Of a stretch of DNA of 62,806 nt, positions 4,879 through 52,430 are shown piece by piece. The stretch spans positions 1 through 62,806 of the forward strand of contig NZ_VAVZ01000019.1 in assembly GCF_005771525.1 (NCBI RefSeq), in the 5' to 3' direction. The notes below the pieces were generated by a model. The model had not been told where the DNA came from, searched no databases, and saw only the letters and a program-made list of their open reading frames with translations. Both the position numbers and the translations under genes were made by a program. This DNA comes from Nesterenkonia salmonea. GTDB lineage: Bacteria > Actinomycetota > Actinomycetes > Actinomycetales > Micrococcaceae. Positions within the stretch are counted from its first letter, which is position 1. Each line of letters begins with the position of its first letter.

Positions 4879-5892
<1,014 letters not shown>

Positions 5893-40743: not shown

Positions 40744-42376
40744 TCACGAGATGATGCTGAGGCTGAAATCGTCGAAATTTCCTGCCATGACGTGATCGTC
40801 CTGCCAGTACCGCGGGGTCAGCGTGATGCCTTCAACCAGCACCGGGTGCTCGGGCTGTTTCGTGAACAGTCCGCGTCGCCTGAAAATCAGGTCGACGGCA
40901 GCCCAGCGCAGTTCGGGAACAGCACGCACTGCGCTGACTGCGATACGGCTGATCTCATTAATCTCTTTGGCCTTCAGAGGCCCTCGCGGTGACTTCTCGG
41001 TGATGAGTGAAACCCCGTCAGGCGTGGCGAGGACCCTGAGATGCCGGCCCTGCGGTCGGCTCTGGACCCAGGTCCTTTCAAAGGGCAACGCTGAGAGCTC
41101 AAGAGCCTCCTGGTCGGTCAGGTGAAGCATGCCGTTGGCGTCCCATGATTTCCTCACCTGCAGCATCACGACCTGTTGGGTTCGTCCTTCGATAAAGCTC
41201 TTCAGTCAGTCCGTGGTGGAGACCGATCGGCCTCGAACCATTGGCACTGACTCCTGTTCGAGGAACCTGAAGAGCAGGGGGTGGCGCCTGACGACTCGAC
41301 GGACGACGAAACGATCCTTCGAGGTGCGTCCTTCAGCGGTCACCCAGAGGCGCTCGCCGCTATGGGTGGTGACTTTGCTGAGTTTGTCGGTGAGCCGTCC
41401 AACGGAGAGCCCTTGCTTCAGCCACGAACGGTGGATCAGCTCACCCACCGTTGAGCTCTGCTGATTCCCGAGGCCCTGGGTCGGCAGGAATGCCTGCGGC
41501 CGTGAGGCAGCAGCTGGGAGCTTCACGGGTGCGTCACGAGCTGGTTCAGTGGAGGTGTCGTCGTAGCGCAGCTGGAAAATGTCTTGGGTGACGTCCTTGG
41601 GCTGCCCGTATGTGGGGAATGCGGCGGAGAGGAATCCGGCGTTGGTATTGACCTCTATGACGTAGGCCTTGCCGGTCTTGACGTCGGTGATGATGTCCAC
41701 CCCGCCCCAGGCTAGTCCCGGGATAGCGGCGATGGCTTGCCGAGCTGTGTCTTTGACATCCTCACTGGCATTGTCGATGTCCTGCTTGATGTCAGCTCCC
41801 ACGCTGTGACCACCAACATTCCGCACTGTCACCGTCTCTCCTAGCGGAGGAACGGACTCGACTCTGAGGCCATGCCGTCTGAGGAACTGGCGGGTGATCC
41901 TGTCGATGGGGATGGGGGCTTGGCCGAAGATGGTGCTGCTGGCCCGCTGAAGGTTCTTGTCCTTGATTAGTTGCTCGATGGTGGACACACCATCTCCCAC
42001 CACATGAGGAAACACCCGCACATTGGCGGCTACGACGCGATCGGAGGAGGCCATCACGCGCATTTCCTCTCCGACCTCAATATGTTCCTGGACGATCACC
42101 CCGTCTCGGTACTTGCGCGCGAAGGTGAAAGCACGGCGAATATCTTTCTCCAGCACGAGGTCAGTGGATACACCACGTCCTTGGCTTCCGTCCTGCGGTT
42201 TGATGACCACTGGGCCGTCTATGGTCCGCGCAGCTTCGACTGCCTCCTCCGCTGAACTGACGACGACAGTGCGAGGCGTTGACACACCGTGGGACCGTAG
42301 CAGTTCCGCGGTCAGCGCCTTATCTCCGACGACCGTTGATCCTAGGTCGGATTCGTGAGCAGTCGGCCCGTTGGTG
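40744..42376 (-). pseudogene. 3' part of the transposon-split CapA-ATP-grasp gene
   Basis: This is the downstream piece of a gene whose 5' part is at 51187-52430. It opens with TNGPTAHESDLG, in the same phase as the TNG that ends the other piece. The first section is an intact ATP-grasp domain: VVIKPQDGSQGRGVS (ATP-binding Lys and glycine loop), VQEHIEVGEEMRVM and YVIEVNTNAGF (metal ligands). A linker leads to a second ATP-grasp-like module starting near GLSVGRLTDKL. That module is cut by an in-frame TGA (41206-41208), yet continues in the same frame to 40744 (VVMLQVRKSWDANG, HLRVLATPDG, WAAVDLIFRRRG, HPVLVEGITLTP). Its ATP-binding Lys and Glu/Asn ligands are missing, so it looks catalytically dead. 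A hybrid reading can start inside the transposon (ATG 42546) and would fuse about 57 element-coded residues to the active ATP-grasp domain. Confidence 0.8.
42368..42376. repeat. target-site duplication, left copy
   Basis: CCGTTGGTG immediately precedes the left terminal inverted repeat. The same nine bases follow the right end at 51187-51195. If one more G is counted as part of each element end, the duplication would be seven bases. Confidence 0.8.
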
Positions 42377-42399
42377 TGTGAGTCGCAACGGTAAATGGC
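42377..42399 (+). repeat. transposon terminal inverted repeat, left
   Basis: Starts TGTGAGTCGCAACGGTAA and ends TGGC. It is identical to the inverted right end (51164-51186) at 21 of 23 positions, with G/A differences at positions 15 and 19. The ends begin TGT and finish ACA, as in Mu/Tn7/Tn5053-type elements. Confidence 0.85.
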
Positions 42400-42637
42400 A
42401 TGATTCCGGCGTCGATTTGCGGCCGATGGGGAGGGCCTGTCGGTACCCAGCGCAAGGAGGTAGGGCGGGATCTGCCAGCGCGCCAGCCATGCCAAGGGTG
42501 AGCCGGTGCGGCCCTGCTTGCTACCTTCAGGGAGTGCCCCGTCCATAGGGACAGTCCCGCATCGCAACAACCCGTCGATCACGACGACAATGACGCCGAC
42601 GCCCCGCACTCTGGACAGGATGTCCGTAGTTGTCTCG

Positions 42638-43243
42638 TCAGAGACCGAAGGCCCCGCCACCGACTAGGATGATGATGCCCAGACCGATCAAGACGATCGG
42701 GAACAAGATGTGTTCCCACCGCTCAAGGACTTCGGCGATCGGTGCTCGGGTGGCGACGAACTTGGCCAGCATGACCAGGAGCGCGACCAATACGAGGAAG
42801 ACGATGCAGTAGGCCATCACGGCCGCCGGTTCCACGTTGAGGAAGACGGGAACGTAGACGCCGATGTTGTCCCCACCGTTGGCGAAGGTGACTCCCGCGA
42901 CGGTCCAGACGCCGACCTTCTTGTCCGCGATCTTAGCGTCGTCATCGTCGTCATCGTCGTCGTCTCCGCGCCAGGCCTGCCAGGCGGCCCACAGACCCAG
43001 TGTCAGCGGGATGAGTCCGAAGTAAGGGATAGCCGCCGAGGGCAGAAACGCACCGGCACCCACAGTCACAAGCACAGCCGCACCGAGGATGCCCGCGAAT
43101 CCTAGGTACTGGCCGGCCGCGATTCGTGCCGTCGTCCCGCGTTGTCCCGAGCCGCGGGCGAAGAACAGCGAGACGACGATGATGTCGTCGATGTTGGTCG
43201 CGATGAACAGGCCGATCGCCTGCAAAATCGAGGACAGGATCAC
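42638..43243 (-). CDS. cadD: cadmium-resistance-type transporter (CadD family)
   Basis: A 201-residue membrane protein with about five to six helices. LQAIGLFIATNIDDIIVVSLFF and FANGGDNIGVYVPVF are the two hallmark Asp-containing motifs of the CadD (PF03596) family of the LysE superfamily. The cytoplasmic loop carries nine consecutive Asp residues, a possible metal-attracting stretch. GTG 43243 overlaps the sensor gene stop (GTGA). It lies at the left end of the transposon and is transcribed outward, towards the interrupted ATP-grasp fragment. Confidence 0.85.
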   Translation of the reverse strand: MILSSILQAIGLFIATNIDDIIVVSLFFARGSGQRGTTARIAAGQYLGFAGILGAAVLVTVGAGAFLPSAAIPYFGLIPLTLGLWAAWQAWRGDDDDDDDDDAKIADKKVGVWTVAGVTFANGGDNIGVYVPVFLNVEPAAVMAYCIVFLVLVALLVMLAKFVATRAPIAEVLERWEHILFPIVLIGLGIIILVGGGAFGL

Positions 43244-43599
43244 ACCTCCGCCCCTGCGTTCTCGCAACTGGCAACCGAGCAGGCGGGATCGAGGCACGGG
43301 GCGTGCTCGTCCACTGAAAGGGTGGTCTCGACCAGGGCGTTGAGCGCCCGCGTCAGGTGCGGATCGGCGATCTTATAGCGTGTCTTGCGGCCTTCGGGCT
43401 CGGCAACCACAATTCCGCAGTCGCGCAGGCACGCCAGATGGTTGGACACGTTTGGGCGGGTCAATTCCAATGCACGGGCCAGCTCCGCAGGGTAGGCCGG
43501 CCCCTCTAGCAGCGTCAGGAGAAGCCGTGACCTGGTCGGGTCGGCCATCGCTCGGCCCAACCGGTTCATCACGTTCAAGCGAGAAGTAACAGTCACCAC
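43240..43599 (-). CDS. cmtR: CmtR-like ArsR-family Cd/Pb sensor repressor
   Basis: A 119-residue winged-helix repressor very like Mycobacterium CmtR. The two DNA-helix cysteines are kept (NHLACLRDCGIV) and so is the C-terminal one (DEHAPCL); together these are the Cd/Pb ligands in CmtR. It should repress its own operon until cadmium or lead binds. The GTG start at 43599 sits at the predicted transcription start, so the message may be leaderless. A second GTG at 43596 is also possible. The last ten residues contain extra Cys. Confidence 0.88.
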   Translation of the reverse strand: MVTVTSRLNVMNRLGRAMADPTRSRLLLTLLEGPAYPAELARALELTRPNVSNHLACLRDCGIVVAEPEGRKTRYKIADPHLTRALNALVETTLSVDEHAPCLDPACSVASCENAGAEV

Positions 43600-43606
43600 T
43601 CGCTGA

Positions 43607-43634
43607 ACTATACAGTAAGGACTGAATCCTCCAA
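43607..43634 (-). promoter_or_regulatory. promoter of cmtR-cadD
   Basis: TTGGAG (-35, 43629-43634) and TATAGT (-10, 43607-43612) are 16 bases apart. Transcription would begin at about 43600, next to the GTG at 43599, implying a leaderless mRNA. TTCAG occurs twice around the -10 and may be part of the repressor site. Confidence 0.55.
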
Positions 43635-43706
43635 CCCTTGCCTTCTTATCGGCAGCGCACCAACTCCTCGGTTCTGGAATGTCCTTTATTCTCAGCGGGG
43701 CCTGCC

Positions 43707-43728
43707 TGTGGCTCGCAACGGTAATGGC
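43707..43728 (+). repeat. internal copy of the transposon end sequence
   Basis: TGTGGCTCGCAACGGTAATG (then GC) matches the left end with two substitutions and one missing A. It faces the same way as the left terminal repeat and lies between cmtR and the first merR gene. It may be an older end of a smaller element (43707-51186) or an internal transposase-binding site. Confidence 0.7.
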
Positions 43729-43778
43729 GGTCTTCTCACGCCGCTATCTGTCGCTTGTATCGATCGACAGCCCTGGGG

Positions 43779-44180
43779 TTATGTGAGGGACTTGAAGGCG
43801 CACTCGGACTGACAGGGCTCTGAACTATCTGGGCAGGTGGCCACGTGGTCGAGCGAACTCACCAGAACGGCCCGTAGCTCTACCAGGTTGCGGATGCTGT
43901 CTTCGACCTCACGCAGCCGCTCAGTGAGCACTGGGTGCAGGGTATCTCGGGTGTTGGTGCAGGTCCCGGTTTCTGTGACCTCGAGAAGCCACTTGATCTG
44001 CTCAAGGTCCAGGTTCATCTTCTTGGCCACACTGATGAACCGCAGATGCTCCAGCGCCTCAGATCCATATTCGCGGTAGCCGTTCGCGGCCCGGGTCGAA
44101 CTGATCAAGCCGAGCTGTTCGTAGTAGCGCAGGGTGGTAGCGGGGACCCCACTGCTCTCGGTGACCTCAGAGATACGCAT
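43779..44180 (-). CDS. MerR-family metal-responsive regulator
   Basis: A 133-residue MerR-type activator: MRISEVTESSGVPATTLRYYEQLGLI is the DNA-binding helix-turn-helix, followed by the coiled dimerisation helix. Cysteines occur at GTCTNTRD and in the tail CPDSSEPCQSEC, typical of metal-binding members. It follows the ACR3-like permease gene in the same direction (28-base gap), and a MerR-type promoter precedes that permease, so it probably controls its own operon. The inducing metal is unknown. Confidence 0.85.
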   Translation of the reverse strand: MRISEVTESSGVPATTLRYYEQLGLISSTRAANGYREYGSEALEHLRFISVAKKMNLDLEQIKWLLEVTETGTCTNTRDTLHPVLTERLREVEDSIRNLVELRAVLVSSLDHVATCPDSSEPCQSECAFKSLT

Positions 44181-44208
44181 ACCTACACCCTTCCACGGAG
44201 ATGGAGTG

Positions 44209-45201
44209 TCATCGGTCGCTGTTCGTTGCGGAAACCTGTTCGACCGGGTCCGGCTTGTCACGGTGGCGAATGATCTGACTCAGTGCGGCCAGGATCGGGA
44301 GCTCGATCAAGGGCCCTACCACCAGGGCCACGGCGATCAGTGGCCGGTCCGGGAATGCGGCGACCGCGATACCCAGCGCGATGGGTGAGTTCCGCGCGGT
44401 GGTCACCATCGTCAGAGCCACCCGTTGAGGCCCCGTCAGGCGCATCAGTCGAGAAACGCCGGTGGCGACCAGCGGAAGGATGATGAAGAACGCCAGCAGC
44501 GGAGGCAGCAACAGCAGCATCTCGGCGCCGCTCTCAGCGACCACCGCCGCCTGCCAGGCAAACATCGCGAAGACTGCCACACACAGCAGCGGCATCACCA
44601 CCCGCTTCGCCCACAGGTTGACATGTTCATCGCGCCACTGCTCGCCCTTGAGGCGTGTGCTTGCCCAGCGCAGGGTGAAGGCCACCACCAGCGGGGTTAG
44701 AAGCATCAGCCCCACGGCTTCCAACAGGGTGCTGGAATCGACCATCGCAGCTTCACCGCCGAGCAGCATCACGTAGACCGGGAGCAGCAATAGCTGAAGC
44801 ACCAGGTTGATCGGCAACAGGGCGGCAGCGATCCCCGCATGGCCACGGGCCATCGCGGTGAAGATCAGGTACCAATCGGTGCACGGGGTGACCAGCAGCA
44901 GCAACAGCCCGATTCGCAGGTCAGGCTGTTCCCCGAGCAGCCCGAGGCCCAGCGCCCAGGCGAGAAGCGGGGTAAAGGCGTAGTTGAGCACCAGACTGAC
45001 CGCGACCAGCCCCTTGGCCTTGCCCACGTCTTTGAGGTGCGAGGCATCGAGCTGCACGAATACCGCGATGAGCATCACCAGTAGCGCTGGGATCACGAGA
45101 TGCTCGCCGTTGGCGCCCAATGGGCTGGCGATACCGACGCCTAATCCAACCAGTGCGGCGCCCGCGACGAACACGCTTTGAAGACGCTCAGCCCAAGTCA
45201 T
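44209..45201 (-). CDS. ACR3/bile-acid:sodium symporter-family permease, probable arsenite efflux
   Basis: A 330-residue membrane protein with about ten helices. LLLVTPCTDWYLIFTAMARG near residue 104 carries a Cys where ACR3 has its essential arsenite-binding Cys, and TTARNSPIALGIAVAAFP near 270 is the second conserved helix. ACR3 exports arsenite using the proton gradient. A MerR-type promoter, rather than an ArsR site, controls it here, and no arsenate reductase is next to it. Export of another metalloid or oxyanion remains possible. Confidence 0.75.
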   Translation of the reverse strand: MTWAERLQSVFVAGAALVGLGVGIASPLGANGEHLVIPALLVMLIAVFVQLDASHLKDVGKAKGLVAVSLVLNYAFTPLLAWALGLGLLGEQPDLRIGLLLLLVTPCTDWYLIFTAMARGHAGIAAALLPINLVLQLLLLPVYVMLLGGEAAMVDSSTLLEAVGLMLLTPLVVAFTLRWASTRLKGEQWRDEHVNLWAKRVVMPLLCVAVFAMFAWQAAVVAESGAEMLLLLPPLLAFFIILPLVATGVSRLMRLTGPQRVALTMVTTARNSPIALGIAVAAFPDRPLIAVALVVGPLIELPILAALSQIIRHRDKPDPVEQVSATNSDR

Positions 45202-45282
45202 CTGGTGGTCCTCTCCATCGGCAGCTGTGACAGGACCATTCCGCGGCAGCTGGGTTCAGCGGCAGGGGGGTCCTGCATCACC

Positions 45283-45314
45283 ACGGTAAACCTTCAAGTC
45301 AACTAGAAGGTCAA
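45283..45314 (-). promoter_or_regulatory. MerR-type promoter of the ACR3-merR operon
   Basis: Reading leftward, TTGACC (-35, 45309-45314) and TACCGT (-10, 45283-45288) are 20 bases apart, the over-long spacing that requires MerR-type DNA untwisting. The spacer region holds a dyad, ACCTTC-N10-GAAGGT (45290-45311). The leader to the permease ATG is about 75 bases. Confidence 0.75.
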
Positions 45315-45315
45315 G

Positions 45316-45704
45316 ACGAGTTTCGGTCTGTCCGTCTAGACCCCACATCTTCGGCTCCATGGACCTCGCCTCGATCCTTACCGCGAGCCCGTCGCCGGCA
45401 GTCTGGCCATCGACCACGATGCTGGCCATTGGAGCGGACCTGCTCACGGTCCAATGATCCACAGAGCTCTCATGCGCCTGGCAACCTATCCGATGGCCAT
45501 CTGAAAACTGTCGCTAGATATTCGGCCTGCTCTCTCACTGCTGCTGGGCTTGGGGCTGCTGAGCCCTGAGGTTTTTCAAGCCGTAGCCGGGCCTCGCGCA
45601 CGTGACCGGAGCGTTGTGGGGGCCTCCCTACGGCCTCGCTGTGTTCAACCTCCAGGGGCTCCCACCGAGCCGGCCCGCATCGTGGGGTTTGTCTTGATCT
45701 CTGG
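45316..45704. other. intergenic stretch without a convincing gene
   Basis: About 390 bases between the ACR3 promoter and the end of the broken reductase gene. A short hairpin (GGGCT-GCTG-AGCCC, 45553-45566) is followed by TGAGG and five T, a weak rightward terminator shape. No reading frame here has a ribosome-binding site and family resemblance. Confidence 0.5.
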
Positions 45705-47071
45705 TTAGAGCATCGATCCCAGGTCAGACCCGATGGAAGGATATATCGCCGGCGAGGATTTTACCTCCCGCGCCGTCAGCTCGTACTTCATGGCCAGGCT
45801 GATTGTGTTCACCAACTCTGCATAACCATGTCCGAACAGATGCGCCCCCACGATGAGATCACTCGAGCGGTCGACAAGAATCTTGACTGCCCCGGCTGTT
45901 TCGCCGACCCGATACTGGGAAAACCACCGACTGGTGTCGGTCTACCTGACATCGATATCCATACCGCGCGACCGGGCTTCATCCTCCAACGCCCCTACCC
46001 TGGCAAGCTCCGGGATCGTGAAGACCGCCGTCGGAGTCGCCCCGTAGTCAGGCACAGCATCCCCTGACTTCAAGATGTTTGATGCTGCGACTTTTGCCTC
46101 CATCACAGCTACCGGGGTAAGCGGCATCCCCTGGGTGTCAGCAGCATCACCGGCGGCATACACGGCTGAGTTCGTGATCGACTGCAGATCAGCTGTCACG
46201 TCGATGCCTCGTGGGCCATACGCCACGCCGCCGGCCTCAAGATCAAGCCGGGACAGATCAGGGACACGTCCTGCTCCATGAACGACAAGGTCCACTTCGA
46301 TCATCGTTGCGACGCCCTGCTGCTCGAGATGCACCTGATACCCGGCGGGTACTGCTTCCATGCCGGTGATGCTGGTGCCCGATTGCACGTCGACACCAGC
46401 CTGGGTGCCGCGTTGGATCAGCAGGTCCACCAGATCGGGGTCAAAACTCTTCAGCGGCCGCGAGCCACGGTCGATGATGATGGGGCGGGACCCGGCTCGT
46501 GCCGCGATGTGAGCGAATTCGAAGGACACGAACCCGCCTCCGACAAAGAGGACCCGAGGAGGAAGATCCTCGAGATTCAAGAACGCTGTGCTGTCGATCA
46601 CGTGCTCGTGACTATGGAAATCAAGCGGGGCAGGTGTGGCGCCGGTCGCGATCAGGATCTTTGGTGCGTGATAGCCCACACCGGAGACCTCAACTTCGGT
46701 CGGGCCGGTGAACACTGCGGTGCCGTGGAGTGTCTGCACCCCGTGCGCCTTGAGATCGTCTTCCATGCTGGTGGGCACACCATCGGTGAAGCCGTGCTTG
46801 TGCTTCATCAGCTGCGCCCAGTTCACCGATAAATAAGTCCCCCCTCATCGATGCCTTTATCCCCCATCAGATGTGCCGCATCCAGGATCTCAGCTCCCCG
46901 GCGCAGAATTTTCTTCGGGTCACACCCCCGCAGGGCGCAGGTGCCACCATAGGGAAGCGAGTCCACGATGGCCACACGCCAACCCTGGGATGCGCACTTG
47001 GTCGCTGCCGCTATCCCAGCCATGCCGGCCCCAATGACTATCAGTCCGTATTTCTCGGTCTTTTCCGTCAT
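45705..47071 (-). pseudogene. mercuric-reductase/glutathione-reductase-like flavoprotein, broken
   Basis: A pyridine nucleotide-disulfide oxidoreductase in three pieces. Piece 1 (47071-46823) has the FAD motif VIGAGMAGIAAA and the redox centre GGTCALRGCDPKK. The frame then ends, and piece 2 (46826-45942) continues one base out of phase with KILIATGATPAP, the NAD(P) motif LFVGGGFVSFEFAHIAARA and AVYAAGDAAD; a missing base near the G6 run at 46840 would explain this. Piece 3 (45941-45705) continues in the same frame after a TAG at 45942-45944 and carries the dimerisation domain (VGAHLFGHGYAELVNTI). There is no N-terminal HMA domain and no C-terminal vicinal Cys pair, so it is not a classical MerA. 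It is downstream of the thioredoxin-like gene. Confidence 0.85.
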
Positions 47072-47138
47072 ATCTGCACCTTGTCTGAAGCGCTGCGACC
47101 ATCACGCTGAGGGATTGATGTTCCTGGACGCTCTGTTT

Positions 47139-47453
47139 CTATCTCGGCGTGGAGTCAGCGGCTGCTGCTGCGGAGCGCAGCTGCTTCATGGTAGGGGCGC
47201 CAGCGATTCCCTCAGGAGTCATATACCTGCGACACGACAAGCCCACCGCCGAAGAGGTCTCCGAGAACCTGTCGAAACCATCGATCAGGACACTGGGGGA
47301 ACCATGAAAACCCAGCCGCTGAGCCTGGGCGTCACTCTCTACCAGCTGTGTGCTCAGACTGATGTCGGAGCGCTCAGCACACAGCGCCTGGAGCCGCTCA
47401 TGGGCAATCTTCCAATTGGGGCATCCCTCGAAGTACTGCAGCACGATTTCCAT
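47139..47453 (-). CDS. small thioredoxin-fold protein of mer-like operons
   Basis: A 104-residue protein starting MEIVLQYFEGCPNWKIAHERL, a single-Cys thioredoxin-like opening, with SPSVLIDGFDRF as the cis-Pro region (GSPS) and a later single Cys. Such small proteins are often found next to mercury and alkylmercury genes in actinobacteria. The ATG at 47453 sits at the predicted start of transcription of a MerR-type promoter, so the mRNA is probably leaderless. It is the first gene before the broken reductase. Confidence 0.65.
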   Translation of the reverse strand: MEIVLQYFEGCPNWKIAHERLQALCAERSDISLSTQLVESDAQAQRLGFHGSPSVLIDGFDRFSETSSAVGLSCRRYMTPEGIAGAPTMKQLRSAAAAADSTPR

Positions 47454-47459
47454 GGCCTG

Positions 47460-47501
47460 ATCATAAACCTTGTAGCCGGGTACAAGGTCAAGTCATATGA
47501 T
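47460..47501. promoter_or_regulatory. overlapping divergent promoters and MerR operator
   Basis: Leftward promoter: TTGACC (-35, 47486-47491) and TATGAT (-10, 47460-47465) are 20 bases apart, with the perfect dyad ACCTTGTA-N6-TACAAGGT (47467-47488) between. The start falls on the ATG at 47453. Rightward, a second TATGAT at 47496-47501 would start transcription at the merR GTG (47508). One operator thus covers both promoters, and both messages look leaderless. Confidence 0.75.
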
Positions 47502-47507
47502 TGGAAG

Positions 47508-47990
47508 GTGCTTATCGGAGAACTCAGCGCTGTCACCGGCATTGGCCGTCAGGCGATTCGCTTTTATGAACGCCAGGGCCTGCTGTCGAACCCGGAACGA
47601 ACGGGCGGCGGCTACCGTCGCTATGACGATCAGGCCGTCACTCGACTGCGGTTCATCCGCGCCGCCCAGGCCGCGGGCCTGACCCTGCAGGAGATCCTGG
47701 GCACGATTCAACTTCGCGAGACCGGCCAGATTCCTTGCGCACACGTCGCGGGTCTCGTCGAGCAGAAGCTCGCCGATGTTCGAGCCCGCCAGGTTGAACT
47801 CGAGGTGCTGGCCGCTGATCTCGAGCAGACCCTTCTTGCAAGCCAGAACCTCGACCCGGCCAATTGCGGCAACGATGAGGTGTGTCACATCGTGACAACT
47901 CCCGAACACAACCGGGCCAGCACCCATAGTTCTGAACACCATCCCGGGCCTCGTGCAGTGGGGATGGAACATCGTGGGCCCCTTAACTGA
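47508..47990 (+). CDS. MerR-family metal-responsive activator
   Basis: A 160-residue regulator: ELSAVTGIGRQAIRFYERQGLL is the helix-turn-helix, GGGYRRYDDQAVTRLRFIRAAQAAGL the second motif, then a long dimerisation helix. Cys at IPCAHV, DPANCGND and EVCHIV match the three-Cys pattern of MerR/ZntR-type sensors of divalent metals. The frame is open far upstream but that part is antisense to the thioredoxin-like gene; GTG 47508, just after the -10 element, is preferred. It is divergent from the operon it should activate. Confidence 0.85.
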   Translation: MLIGELSAVTGIGRQAIRFYERQGLLSNPERTGGGYRRYDDQAVTRLRFIRAAQAAGLTLQEILGTIQLRETGQIPCAHVAGLVEQKLADVRARQVELEVLAADLEQTLLASQNLDPANCGNDEVCHIVTTPEHNRASTHSSEHHPGPRAVGMEHRGPLN

Positions 47991-48155
47991 CGATTGACTG
48001 AGCCCAAAGTGGTCGTCCCAGTTCCTTGGTTGTGGGACGGACCTCACGAGCAGGCCTCCGGATCCACAGCTATCGGCGCGTCGGCATCCCAGAAGTTATC
48101 CCACAATCAGATTCCATCTATTCCGTACGATTCCGACTACTGGTACTCTCAGGCC
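47991..48155. other. candidate resolution (res) region
   Basis: 165 bases without a gene before the resolvase. A near-perfect inverted repeat, GGTCGTCCCA (48011-48020) and TGGGACGGACC (48033-48043), and three spaced ATTCC repeats (48111-48135) fit a multi-site recombinase target. This is inference from position only. Confidence 0.35.
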
Positions 48156-48782
48156 ATGGAATTGGGGTACGCACGAGTCTCGACGGCCAAACAGGATCTA
48201 GATCGACAGATCGATGCCCTACGCGAGGTCGGTATCACAGCCGACCGGATCTACGTAGACAAGAAATCAGGTGCCACCGTCAACCGGCCCGGACTCGGCG
48301 CGGCGCTGGACTATGCCCGCGACGGTGACGTGATCGTGGTCCACACCCTCGACCGGCTCGGACGCACCGTGCGTGACACCCTGAACCTCATTCACGACCT
48401 CGCCGAACGAGGAGTGGGAGTCCGCAACTTGGCAGACCCGATCAAGGTCGATTCATCGAACCCCAACGATCCGATGGCGCAACTGGCAGTGGTGCTGCTG
48501 GCACTGTTCGGACAGATGGAACGCACCTACACCCTCGAACGTGCCGCCCATGCCCGAGCAGTGGCCACAGCGAAAGGTCGCCGCGTGGGCCGACCCTCGG
48601 TGGTGGACCCGGACAAGCTGGCCTACGCAGCACACTTGCGCGAAACCGGGCATACCATCGCTGAGATCGTGACCAAGTCAGGGATTGCCCGGACCAGTCT
48701 GTATCGACACCTTCCACCCCGGCCTGCTGAATCGGTGACCGCCGGAGTAAACACCGAAGCCGACGCCGACTCAGAGATCTGA
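48156..48782 (+). CDS. serine recombinase/resolvase
   Basis: A 208-residue resolvase/invertase. YARVSTAKQDLDRQ holds the catalytic Ser near residue 10, and VVHTLDRLGRTVRD the conserved Arg region near 67. A C-terminal helix-turn-helix (ETGHTIAEIVTKSGIARTSLYRHL) binds DNA. ATG 48156 is chosen because it gives the usual N-terminus. It would resolve cointegrates made by the transposase encoded ten bases downstream. Confidence 0.92.
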   Translation: MELGYARVSTAKQDLDRQIDALREVGITADRIYVDKKSGATVNRPGLGAALDYARDGDVIVVHTLDRLGRTVRDTLNLIHDLAERGVGVRNLADPIKVDSSNPNDPMAQLAVVLLALFGQMERTYTLERAAHARAVATAKGRRVGRPSVVDPDKLAYAAHLRETGHTIAEIVTKSGIARTSLYRHLPPRPAESVTAGVNTEADADSEI

Positions 48783-48791
48783 TACCGGCCG

Positions 48792-50243
48792 GTGATAGCG
48801 ATGGCGCAGTTCACCCCAGAGAAGAAGATCACTCTGCTGCGCCAGCACGACGAAGGAGTCCCCTGGACGCGCATCGCCGAGGAATCAGGGGTGGCGCTGC
48901 GAACACTGACCCGCTGGTCCGCGAAATACCGCGCTGACCCGACCTCGCGTGGCCTGACGCGCCCGGTTCGTAGTGACCGTGGGAAACGACGAATCTCGGC
49001 TGAGCTCGTTGAACTGATCGAAGCATTGGCCCTTCGGTGGCCTGAACCCACAGCCGCGTTCATCCATCGCCGGGTCAGCGACATCGCCGATGACCGAGGC
49101 CTAACCGCACCGAGCTACTCCAGCGTCCGAGCGATCATCGACGCTATCGATCCTGGTCTACGGACCCTGGCTCAACACGGTGACGCTGCATACCGGGATC
49201 GGTTTGAATTGGTGCTGCGCCGCAGCGCCGCACGTCCGAATGAGCAGTGGCAGGCCGATCACACGCTTCTCGACGTTGCGATCCTGGATAAGACCGGCGC
49301 CCCGGTGCGCCCCTGGTTAACAGTGTTACTGGATGACTACTCGCGTGCGGTCGCCGGGTACACCCTCTTCCTGGGTGCCCCGACGGCGGAGCAGACAGCA
49401 CTTGCACTGCACCAGGCCATCAACCCCAAGACAGATCCATCCTGGCCCGTATGTGGTCTGCCCGATCTGATCTACTCAGACCACGGGTCGGACTTCACCT
49501 CCGCCCGGCTTGAGCGAGTCTGCCTAGACACCAAAGTCCAGCTCATCCACTCCCGGGTCGGTATTCCACAAGGCCGGGGAAAGATCGAACGGTTCTACGG
49601 GTCAGTCACCTCCCAGCTGCTGCCGCATCTGCCCGGGCACATACCCCACGGGACCAACGGAACCCCAGCCACTGACCCGACACTGACGCTCGAACAGCTC
49701 GACGCGATCATGGAGAAGTTCATCGTCACCGAGTACAACCAGCGCACCCACTCCGAAACCGATGAAGCCCCTGCCCACCGATGGGGCGCCTCCGGTTTCA
49801 TCCCACGTGCCCCCGCCCGGCCTGAGGAGCTTGACCTTCTGCTGCTGACCGCAGCCGCCACACGGAAGGTTCAGCGCGACGGGATCCAGTTCGCCTCCAC
49901 CCGGTACGTCTCCACGGTCCTAGCCGCCTACGTCGGTGAACAGGTGACAGTGCGGTTCAATCCCCGCGACGTCGGCGAGATCCGGGTCTACTTCCACGAC
50001 GAGTTCCTCTGCCGCGCGATCGCTCCCCACCTCGCGGCAGAGTCCGTCTCCCTCCAGGAGCTCCAGGCCGCCCGGACTCAACGCCGACGCGACCTGAAAC
50101 GACAGCTGCGACAACGACGCAGCCTTGCCGACGCGCTGCCGCTCGACTCGCGGTACACCCCTCCTGCGCCTGCCGAGGTAGAACCGCCCACCATCGAGGA
50201 TTCACCACCACGACACCGATTGCGTCTCTATGCCACCGAATAA
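48792..50243 (+). CDS. DDE transposase, TniA/Mu-type
   Basis: A 483-residue transposase. An N-terminal helix-turn-helix region is followed by the integrase core with the DDE triad at WQADHTLLDV, YSDHGSDF and GRGKIERFYGS. A Mu-type C-terminal beta domain (about 350-430) and a basic tail complete it. The start is GTG 48792 or ATG 48801. The ATPase gene overlaps its end by 14 bases. It should act on the TGTGAG...CTCACA ends described for the element. Confidence 0.9.
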   Translation: MIAMAQFTPEKKITLLRQHDEGVPWTRIAEESGVALRTLTRWSAKYRADPTSRGLTRPVRSDRGKRRISAELVELIEALALRWPEPTAAFIHRRVSDIADDRGLTAPSYSSVRAIIDAIDPGLRTLAQHGDAAYRDRFELVLRRSAARPNEQWQADHTLLDVAILDKTGAPVRPWLTVLLDDYSRAVAGYTLFLGAPTAEQTALALHQAINPKTDPSWPVCGLPDLIYSDHGSDFTSARLERVCLDTKVQLIHSRVGIPQGRGKIERFYGSVTSQLLPHLPGHIPHGTNGTPATDPTLTLEQLDAIMEKFIVTEYNQRTHSETDEAPAHRWGASGFIPRAPARPEELDLLLLTAAATRKVQRDGIQFASTRYVSTVLAAYVGEQVTVRFNPRDVGEIRVYFHDEFLCRAIAPHLAAESVSLQELQAARTQRRRDLKRQLRQRRSLADALPLDSRYTPPAPAEVEPPTIEDSPPRHRLRLYATE

Positions 50244-51135
50244 CCCTGGACATTCCATCCTCAACAAAGGCGAAGACGGGCGCCGGTTCCTGACCCAAGA
50301 CTTCGGAGAGGTCAACTCCAGCGCCCCACCGAGACCCGACCTGCCACCTTTTCAAACCACCCGGGAACATCGTCGCTTCACCGAGTTCGCGGCCCCCGTC
50401 AGGGCCCACCGCTACATCGGGCTCTGCTGGGGCCCGCCTGGGGTGGGCAAGACCCTTTCTGCGCGTCATTACGGCGGTATCGATGAGTGGGAGCAGTGGC
50501 ACTCTCTCTTCACTGAAGATCTCGGCCCGGTGCCGCCGCGAGTGCTCGAGGCCCGCACCGCGTTCTTCACCCCCACCGTGGCTGCGACCACTAAGCAGAT
50601 CGACCAGGGACTGCCGCGGGTCTGCCAGAAGATCTCGTTCGCTGTGGACTTCGCCGAGCACGGTGTGGTGGACCCCTACGTCCATACCGAGTCACGCTCC
50701 AGCGGACGCACTGAGCTGCTCATCATTGATGAAGCTGATCGTCTCAAGACCACAGGCCTGGAACAGGTTCGTGATTTCTACGATCATCACCACATGGGGG
50801 TGATCCTCATCGGTATGCCCGGGATCGAGAAGCGCCTCGCTCGATATCCGCAGCTCTATAGTCGGATTGGTTTCGCCCACGAGTATCGTCAGCTGACTGC
50901 GGATGAACTCACCGCGGTACTGACCACGCGCCTACCAGCAGCTGAGGGTGCCGCCGACGGTGGTGTCGCCCACGCGACAGCTGTCGCTACCATCGTGCGG
51001 ATCACAGGTGGCAACTTTCGTCTCGTGGATCGATTACTCACCCAGATCGAACGTGTGCAGACAGTCAATGGGCTCGACGAGTTGACCCCCGAAGTAGTGG
51101 AAGCCGCAAGGGACGCCCTCCTCATCGGTCACTAA
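50230..51135 (+). CDS. TniB-like AAA ATPase of transposition
   Basis: A 301-residue AAA protein: Walker A GPPGVGKT near residue 74, Walker B LLIIDEAD near 164 and the arginine-bearing region YSRIGFAHEYRQLT. TniB/MuB/TnsC-type ATPases select the target and stimulate the transposase. The gene overlaps tniA by 14 bases and ends 28 bases before the right terminal repeat. Confidence 0.9.
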   Translation: MPPNNPGHSILNKGEDGRRFLTQDFGEVNSSAPPRPDLPPFQTTREHRRFTEFAAPVRAHRYIGLCWGPPGVGKTLSARHYGGIDEWEQWHSLFTEDLGPVPPRVLEARTAFFTPTVAATTKQIDQGLPRVCQKISFAVDFAEHGVVDPYVHTESRSSGRTELLIIDEADRLKTTGLEQVRDFYDHHHMGVILIGMPGIEKRLARYPQLYSRIGFAHEYRQLTADELTAVLTTRLPAAEGAADGGVAHATAVATIVRITGGNFRLVDRLLTQIERVQTVNGLDELTPEVVEAARDALLIGH

Positions 51136-51163
51136 GGACGCCGATTACCGCTGCCGAAAAACC

Positions 51164-51186
51164 GCCACTTATCGTTGCGACTCACA
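51164..51186 (-). repeat. transposon terminal inverted repeat, right
   Basis: Read inward on the minus strand it starts TGTGAGTCGCAACGATAAG and ends TGGC, matching the left end at 21 of 23 positions. It lies just after the ATPase gene. Confidence 0.85.
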
Positions 51187-51195
51187 CCGTTGGTG
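51187..51195. repeat. target-site duplication, right copy
   Basis: CCGTTGGTG, identical to 42368-42376. On the minus strand it encodes the TNG codons that occur at the junction of both gene halves. Confidence 0.8.
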
Positions 51196-52430
51196 AGGAA
51201 CCGCTTGCCGTGAAGAGTTATCACGGATGTTGAATCCGCGAGCCAGTGGACCTTGGCCCCTTTCGCCTCCGCTCCCAGCGGCAAGATCATGGGGCCCGGT
51301 GGCCTATTGATCCTGGTGGCCGCATCTTCAAGCTCCGCGCTGGGAGTCAGCCGGGGGGACTCATTCGGGTCACCTGTCGGAGTGAGATTTTCGAGGCGGG
51401 AAGGGCGCTGATCAGTTGGCCACGCTCCCAGATCAAGTGCCAGGTGGTGGCCTAGCCCGTCCGAGCCTGTTGTCATCGCGGGGTTGCGGAACCGCCAGGG
51501 ACGCAGCGGCCGTTCAGCCAGCGCGCTGACGATCGTCTCAAAATCCTCCGCAGAGACTGCCCGAGTGCCTGTAGCCTCGCCCGAGTCTTCGACGGGGTAG
51601 AGCTTCAGAGTGACGCGCCGAGAACCGTCAACCCCGTGGATTTCCAACATGGCCCAAAGGGCGAACGGCGGTGGCTCCTCAACCCCGGTCGGGGAGTGTC
51701 CTGGTTGGTTCTGAGCGGTTGAGGGAGACTCTCCCAGCCCATAAACAACCCACCGCTCCCGTTTGCGATGCACCTCTTGGAGTCGTTGGGTGCCTGTGCC
51801 CAGAACGAGGTCGAAATCCTTATTGAGCATCTGATGGACCAGCGCGTACTGGGTGGTGTTCCGCCAGGCTGACTTCTTCCGCCAGGACGGCATAGCAAGG
51901 TGAAAGGCATCGAGACGCTCGTTCTCCAATCGCGGCCGGGGAACTTCCTGGGTGCTCAGAGGCGCAAGACCTGCGCGGTCATCCTCAGCCATAGTCGCAA
52001 GATTATTTGATGAGCCTTCTGGACGGATATGGGAGGCGTGGAAGTTCAGTTGCCCGCCGCCCGCTGCCGCGGGGATCTCCACGGAGAGTGGGTTCTTCGC
52101 CTCATGGAGGTTGCGGCCCACGCCAAAGGGGATGAGGCCTTGGTCGTGCAGCGAATCCAGCGCGGTTTCTACACCCGCAGAGGTGAGATTTGAGAGATTC
52201 TCCGGCGCCAGGTGAACTGCGTCTATGCCTATCTCTGGCATTCCAACCACGCCGTTTCGGACCTCAGCCAATCTCTCGGGTCGGATCGTTGCGATCACCT
52301 GATCAGCACTCTCTGTGAAGGCTGCTAGAGCTGAGGAATGCGCATTGGCTCCAGCTGATAGGTCTTCTAGTGGAAAACCTAGAATGAGCACCCGGTAACT
52401 TGGTGACATCGACGCGTTCATGGTGCTCAT
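51187..52430 (-). pseudogene. 5' part of the transposon-split CapA-ATP-grasp gene
   Basis: The first 414 codons of a gene whose remainder is at 42367-40744. The fold resembles CapA (poly-gamma-glutamate capsule/metallophosphatase-like): NLTSAGVETALDSLHDQG then FGVGRNLHEA, and DLVLGTGTQRLQEV then VVYGLGE. The histidines that bind metal in CapA (NNH and GHHPH) are absent, so this may be a non-catalytic domain. The last section leads towards the ATP-grasp domain. In its present state the frame runs 16 codons plus a stop into the transposon end. ATG 52430 overlaps the stop of the phosphomutase gene (ATGA), indicating an operon. Confidence 0.8.

Follow-up and report, generated by a model that had tools for sequence, protein, structure and literature searches.

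Tn552 of Staphylococcus carries the transposition genes p480 and p271 and a resolvase, with no TniQ named in the accessible part of its description, inserts at res sites and generally makes 6-bp repeats, repeats of 10 bp being reported for two plasmid families (PMC3276174). ISArsp9, which has a 10-bp repeat, and ISArsp14 are found on the Arthrobacter plasmids pA58H2 and pA2H2 and, in the available sections of the source, are termed insertion sequences, are placed in the ISfinder class ISNCY and have ISBli29 named as similar; ISArsp14 is published there with CTGTGA ends and a repeat of seven bp (Romaniuk et al. 2018, PMC6305408). Tn5053 and Tn402 carry TniQ and make 5-bp repeats, as far as the consulted text of PMC7765201 goes, and a 5-bp stagger is given for Mu and for type V-K TnsB in the portions available of PMC8705779 and PMC9527255. 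The subject here is a transposon of 8,810 bp at positions 42377-51186 of a 62,806-nucleotide stretch of Nesterenkonia salmonea DNA (the window; NZ_VAVZ01000019.1, positions 1 to 62,806), where it lies inside one Nesterenkonia host gene. The element is of the Tn552 / ISArsp9-ISArsp14 type, not of the Tn402/Tn7 type, and is a fairly ordinary member of a known group. A single insertion of this kind is unsurprising, and the interesting part is the variable length of the duplication together with left ends that appear to be exchangeable.

The insertion is precise: its ends can be read, the target is duplicated and a single host gene is broken. The relevant features are as follows.

41206..42376, minus strand: C-terminal part of the host gene, cyanophycin-synthetase-like ATP-grasp, stop at 41206-41208 (domain match, relatives, alignment)
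42368..42376, no strand: left copy of the 9-bp target duplication, CCGTTGGTG (sequence and flanking-repeat search)
42377..42399, plus strand: left terminal inverted repeat, TGTGAGTCGCAACGGTAAATGGC from 42377 (sequence read and comparison with relatives)
51164..51186, minus strand: right terminal inverted repeat, TGTGAGTCGCAACGATAAGTGGC inward from 51186 (sequence read and comparison with relatives)
51187..51195, no strand: right copy of the 9-bp target duplication, CCGTTGGTG (sequence and flanking-repeat search)
51187..52430, minus strand: N-terminal part of the host gene, PGA_cap domain (domain match, relatives, alignment, frame)

Each copy of CCGTTGGTG directly abuts an element end, and the two 23-bp ends are identical at 21/23 positions, the similarity between them being clear over 23 bp only. 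Both the inward-facing ends and the identical nine bases on the flanks had been claimed in an earlier reading of this DNA (the original prediction), and direct reading bears them out. In the element's own genome, of 140 contigs, the left end and the transposase are each matched once.

Both copies of the duplication encode T-N-G on the minus strand, in agreement with the earlier claim that they carry the same codons, in the same phase, within two halves of one gene. When the halves are aligned separately to the homologous locus of genome G006, the N-terminal half runs through ...FLTNG and the C-terminal half starts from TNGPTAHES, on the same residues of the homologue; the halves therefore overlap by exactly T-N-G, and these three common residues are the nine duplicated bases. 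The C-terminal part matches the ATP-grasp region of cyanophycin synthetase, far under the full-family cut-offs. Its frame closes at the stop codon 41206-41208, with another stop beyond, and the alignment with the homologue ends there too, the stretch 40744-41169 being a separate open reading frame (ORF) outside the host gene. The intact gene thus has, by arithmetic, about 801 codons plus the stop (1244 + 1162 bases), so that the original view of one broken gene stands while its count of 956 codons (1244 + 1624 bases) does not. The N-terminal part is matched in 5/30 Nesterenkonia genomes searched, its own genome counted. In G006, G014 and G028 both parts lie on one contig in open frames of equal length (989; 1511; 970 and 985 aa). 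Homologues are 56-65% identical over the aligned halves. Related genomes thus hold the host gene unbroken, and the spans 41206-42660 and 51132-52430, which might have proved to be conserved as separate genes, belong in these relatives to one open frame. Elsewhere in Nesterenkonia, several paralogous ATP-grasp genes are clustered and some are PGA_cap fusions (G006:C1 870-903 kb, G028:C12 45-85 kb, G003:C1 425-477 kb).

How long a duplication such transposons make can be read from their relatives, copies of which were drawn from 36 genome loci, from plasmids and from further genomes. Pairs of ends were accepted where both had TGTG, were similar at 13/23 positions or more and were flanked by an exact repeat. 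The search covered 92 tniA hits, 69 being distinct when judged by the opening stretch of the gene, and exact flanking repeats were present in 34/92, with one pair per hit: five of 6 bp, five of 7 bp, eight of 8 bp, thirteen of 9 bp and three of 10 bp, with none of 5 bp. Decoys with shifted flanks gave, over six runs together, three 5-bp and four 6-bp matches and none longer; single 6-bp repeats may therefore occasionally be chance, and longer ones hardly. Removal of duplicates left 31 insertions. In this count the L173 locus, one unit with two tni modules and two pairs, is entered once; L049, whose 11-bp repeat has one mismatch, is excluded; and ISArsp14, recovered from a wider fetch, lies outside the 31. 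An apparent 5-bp exception in L041/L156, with a left end of TATG, was rejected, an end two bases further in giving the 9-bp repeat CAGGAGATA.

Sixteen of the 31 insertions have a transposase at least 60% identical to the one described here, and these comprise one repeat of 7 bp, two of 8, ten of 9 and three of 10, whereas the 15 with the remaining transposases comprise four of 6 bp, three of 7, six of 8 and two of 9 (Mann-Whitney p = 0.0002, with relatedness ignored). Length also differs among close relatives, since L160, L162 and L174 are joined in the TniA tree by branches below 0.01 and yet have 6-, 7- and 8-bp repeats, while a single shallow group made up of L063, L168, L169, L170 and L173 has repeats of 8, 8, 7, 7 and 6 bp. 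Repeat length thus seems to differ from one insertion event to the next, about a centre that depends on the clade, with the qualification that the left ends are not the same in some of these pairs, which may play a part, and that the single 6-bp cases are the least certain. Nine bases, held to be unusual in the original prediction, are usual for this Tn552/ISArsp9-type group, where 6-10 bp is typical, and are unusual only for Tn402. A literature search, with subscription journals largely beyond its reach, found no survey of repeat lengths for the group; a 'Tn552-II' with a 7-bp att (PMC12486829) was set aside, its movement being, in the part of the paper available, of the tyrosine-recombinase type, and the examined text of a Brevibacterium mobilome study (PMC6579920) does not mention TniB, Tn3 or Mu transposase.

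The genes and sites within the element are these.

42638..43297, minus strand: cadD-type cadmium resistance transporter (ORF, domain and NCBIfam matches)
43240..43599, minus strand: ArsR-family regulator (ORF, domain match)
43707..43728, plus strand: inner left-end-like site, possibly an older left end (edit distance 3 from the left end)
43779..44261, minus strand: MerR-family regulator (ORF, domain match)
44209..45201, minus strand: ACR3/SBF-type transporter (domain match; under the NCBIfam acr3 cut-off)
45720..47071, minus strand: pyridine nucleotide-disulphide oxidoreductase gene, mercuric/glutathione reductase-like, frame broken (ORF, domain, tblastn)
47139..47453, minus strand: small DF-family (seleno)protein-like protein (just under the NCBIfam cut-off)
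47514..47900, plus strand: second MerR-family regulator (extent that of the tblastn match)
48015..48038, plus strand: palindrome GTCCCAGTTCCTTGGTTGTGGGAC, candidate res site (upstream of the resolvase gene)
48159..48782, plus strand: serine resolvase (domain match)
48792..50243, plus strand: TniA-like DDE transposase with Mu C-terminal domain, 483 aa (domain match, structure-chain alignment)
50230..51135, plus strand: TniB-like AAA ATPase, 301 aa (domain match, chain comparison)

An alignment of the transposase to TnsB chain 7svw (E 8.7e-44) sets QADHT against QCDHT, YSDHGSDF against YTDGGKDF and GRGKIER against EGGVVER, and these stretches of the transposase are presumed to hold its catalytic D, D and E. 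The ATPase has weak matches to MuB-type and TnsC chains (E about 1e-3). A match to TniQ (PF06527) is absent from the element ORFs scanned, a known TniQ scoring with the same model, and from all four related plasmids searched (0/4, against 1/1 for the control record); a TniQ search of the element's own genome was empty, but its built-in controls likewise gave no signal. The palindrome at 48015-48038 is found in most of 20 aligned resolvase-upstream regions, this element included, and is degenerate in L143 and L147; by this pattern it is likely to be a res site. The disulphide oxidoreductase gene is spread over more than one reading frame, which reflects either a true pseudogene or sequencing errors.

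Given this material, two other readings of the insertion have to be weighed, one concerning where the element ends and the other its family. In the original prediction it was allowed that the duplication might be seven bases, one G belonging to each end, and an element ending GTGTGAG on both sides with a true 7-bp duplication would resemble ISArsp14 as published. One G does lie outside TGTG on each side in this copy, so that both delimitations fit this copy alone. Alignment of other copies fixes the end: they share this kind of end (TGTG) and do not have clearly different ones, although the constancy of TGTG itself among the 31 is imposed by the end search, which required it. The next base outwards varies, being C in 10, A in 3, G in 12 and T in 6 of the 31 insertions on the left, and T in 6, G in 14, C in 9 and A in 2 on the right. 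ISArsp14 presents the same ambiguity and, when delimited at TGTG, has the 9-bp repeat GGCTTCTTC on both sides; for ISArsp9 the published ends and 10-bp repeat are reproduced in the present analysis (L033). The seven-base delimitation is accordingly very unlikely. With the base next to TGTG varying in this way across the 31 insertions, the element ends at TGTG and the duplication here is nine bases, not seven. The other reading, that of a Tn402/Tn5053-family element whose 5-bp duplication appears longer by chance, has on its side the same gene types (TniA, TniB and resolvase) and an apparent preference for the neighbourhood of recombinase genes. It is nonetheless extremely improbable, as none of the 34 exact pairs is of 5 bp, the ORFs scanned have no TniQ match, a long branch of the tree separates off the Tn402/Tn5053-like transposases, and in the match listing Tn402-type sequences reach about 29% identity over half of the query, where staphylococcal ones reach about 44% over 83%. 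These staphylococcal matches are presumably the Tn552 transposase. The frame originally adopted, that of a Tn402/Mu/Tn7-type element with 5-bp duplications, thus gives way to the Tn552/ISArsp9 type, and Tn402 is ruled out as the family, on repeat length, on TniQ not being found and on position in the TniA tree.

Some results weigh against an insertion of a Tn552-like unit with a variable stagger. No exact repeat was found for 58/92 tniA hits, partly where the flank or contig is too short, and the known 5-bp repeat was recovered from 0/4 Tn402-type control loci, two of which (L182 and L184) gave no repeat or no end pair, a third (L183) no convincing ends and the last (L185) ends of 19/25 with a 4-bp repeat. 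Among the genomes seen there is no same-species isolate with an empty site, the homologues being only 56-65% identical, and the Tn552 link comes from match listings, not from comparison with the Tn552 sequence itself. Even so, with the observed ends, duplication, unbroken homologues and spread of repeat lengths, it is very probable that a Tn552-like transposon entered a PGA_cap/ATP-grasp fusion gene as a single unit (42377-51186), in a group whose stagger is 6-10 bp.

A further question concerns how the element came by its left end and cargo. Inside the 31 elements there are three sites at an edit distance of 3 or less from an end, all in left-end orientation: at 43707 in this element, at 8063 in L051 (starting CGTG) and at 10697 in L166, with one at distance 4 in L060. 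The site at 43707 could be a chance resemblance in an element that has always been the 8,810-bp unit, which is a possible though doubtful account. It is the one such site in the element, its flank has no duplication, and 27/31 elements have no internal site at distance 4 or less. Simulated sequence, however, gave none at distance 3 and 0.67 per replicate at 4, and a separate simulation of 200 elements gave no match at 4 or less. The same layout is found in L166, where the inner site coincides exactly with the left end of a free-standing 5,760-bp element in L157, the segments being identical at 5,750/5,760 positions, and where an 8-bp repeat flanks the outer unit of 14,016 bp; the extra 8.3 kb of L166 has no second tniA or tniB. 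Moreover, of the 10/31 elements with the cadD/arsR block, six, one of this element's clade and five of the other, share an identical left end and have the block starting at an offset of 149 bp from it, their right ends being of three different kinds. Most simply, an outer left end would be able to displace the existing one, bringing cargo with it, and modules made up of a left end and its cargo would be swapped between elements. In the present element the one inner site suggests acquisition of the cadD/arsR cargo outside an older left end at 43707. The extra stretch of L166 (2441-10696) holds genes for an MFS (major facilitator superfamily) transporter and for a protein with matches to aminoglycoside adenylyltransferase domains. 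Separately, a Kocuria contig of 3,887 bases (L061) begins one base outside one element end and stops exactly at the other, as if assembled from a multi-copy or circular form.

With regard to target choice, a serine recombinase gene lies within 1 kb of an end in 16/31 insertions (11/16 in this element's clade and 5/15 in the other), and in 0/31 when control bands 3-4 kb out are taken (22 left and 29 right bands being long enough to test). Of the six recombinases used as queries, four are the very neighbours in L033, L035, L036 and L037, and leaving these loci out gives 12/27; in L034 the neighbour belongs to a second tni element, being its resolvase, and the L157 match is partial. The insertion described here has no serine recombinase gene within 1 kb of its ends. 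Two Kocuria insertions in opposite orientation (L057 and L064), each next to a recombinase gene, have 8- and 9-bp repeats and the related targets CATGCGGG and CCCGCATGT. A target common to L143 (CCGTTGAGG) and this locus (CCGTTGGTG) was considered and rejected: the C-half ORF had weakly matched L143 over an element end, but nothing was left of this once host-derived residues alone were used. The match thus comes from the resemblance of element ends, and the two targets are judged to be alike by coincidence.

Taken together, the element, with its resolvase, 483-aa DDE transposase, ATPase and TGTG-ended inverted repeats, very probably inserted as one unit, joining the target at points nine bases apart, with repair duplicating CCGTTGGTG. 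Across the group the stagger is very probably not fixed, ranging over 6-10 bp and differing between insertions made by nearly identical transposases. Movement may be replicative, through a cointegrate that would be resolved at the candidate site 48015-48038, and the segment 42377-43706 with cadD/arsR may have been added when the outer left end was used instead of the older one. It is moderately probable that in Tn552-like transposons generally each transposase makes a stagger of 6-10 bp, outer compatible left ends can replace old ones, cargo is layered in this way and left-end-plus-cargo modules are exchanged between transposase clades. The analysis fixes the end position and duplication length for a group whose published entries are inconsistent, ISArsp14 having been entered as 7 bp plus one base. 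It also provides a natural data set on how a Mu/TnsB-type transposase tolerates a stagger of 6-10 bp and on how such transposons may gain metal-resistance cargo through an outer end.

Compared with what the available text gives for known systems, the element is like Tn402/Tn5053 in its TniA/TniB/resolvase logic, in a possible preference of its group for res regions and in having a DDE transposase with a Mu C-terminal domain and an AAA partner, and unlike them in its 9-bp repeat and in that no TniQ was found, their TniA being set off by the longest branch of the tree. With Tn552 it shares a DDE transposase of about 480 aa (here 483), an AAA ATPase (301 aa), a resolvase and TniQ not being found, whereas the inverted repeats of Tn552 are about 120 bp, against 23 bp here, and its cargo is drug-resistance rather than metal-type; the repeat is 9 bp here against 6 bp for Tn552, a feature that is not strict given the 10 bp also reported there. 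From ISArsp9 and ISArsp14 it differs in host genus and in cargo, theirs being sulfur/cytochrome and efflux modules and that here cadD, an ACR3-type gene and merR. It is like both in ends starting TGTGAATCGCAACGGTAA..., in the resolvase-transposase-ATPase order, in carrying passenger genes, in a long target repeat (9 bp here, 10 bp in ISArsp9 and, re-measured, 9 bp in ISArsp14) and in its transposase, to which theirs are 75-76% identical.

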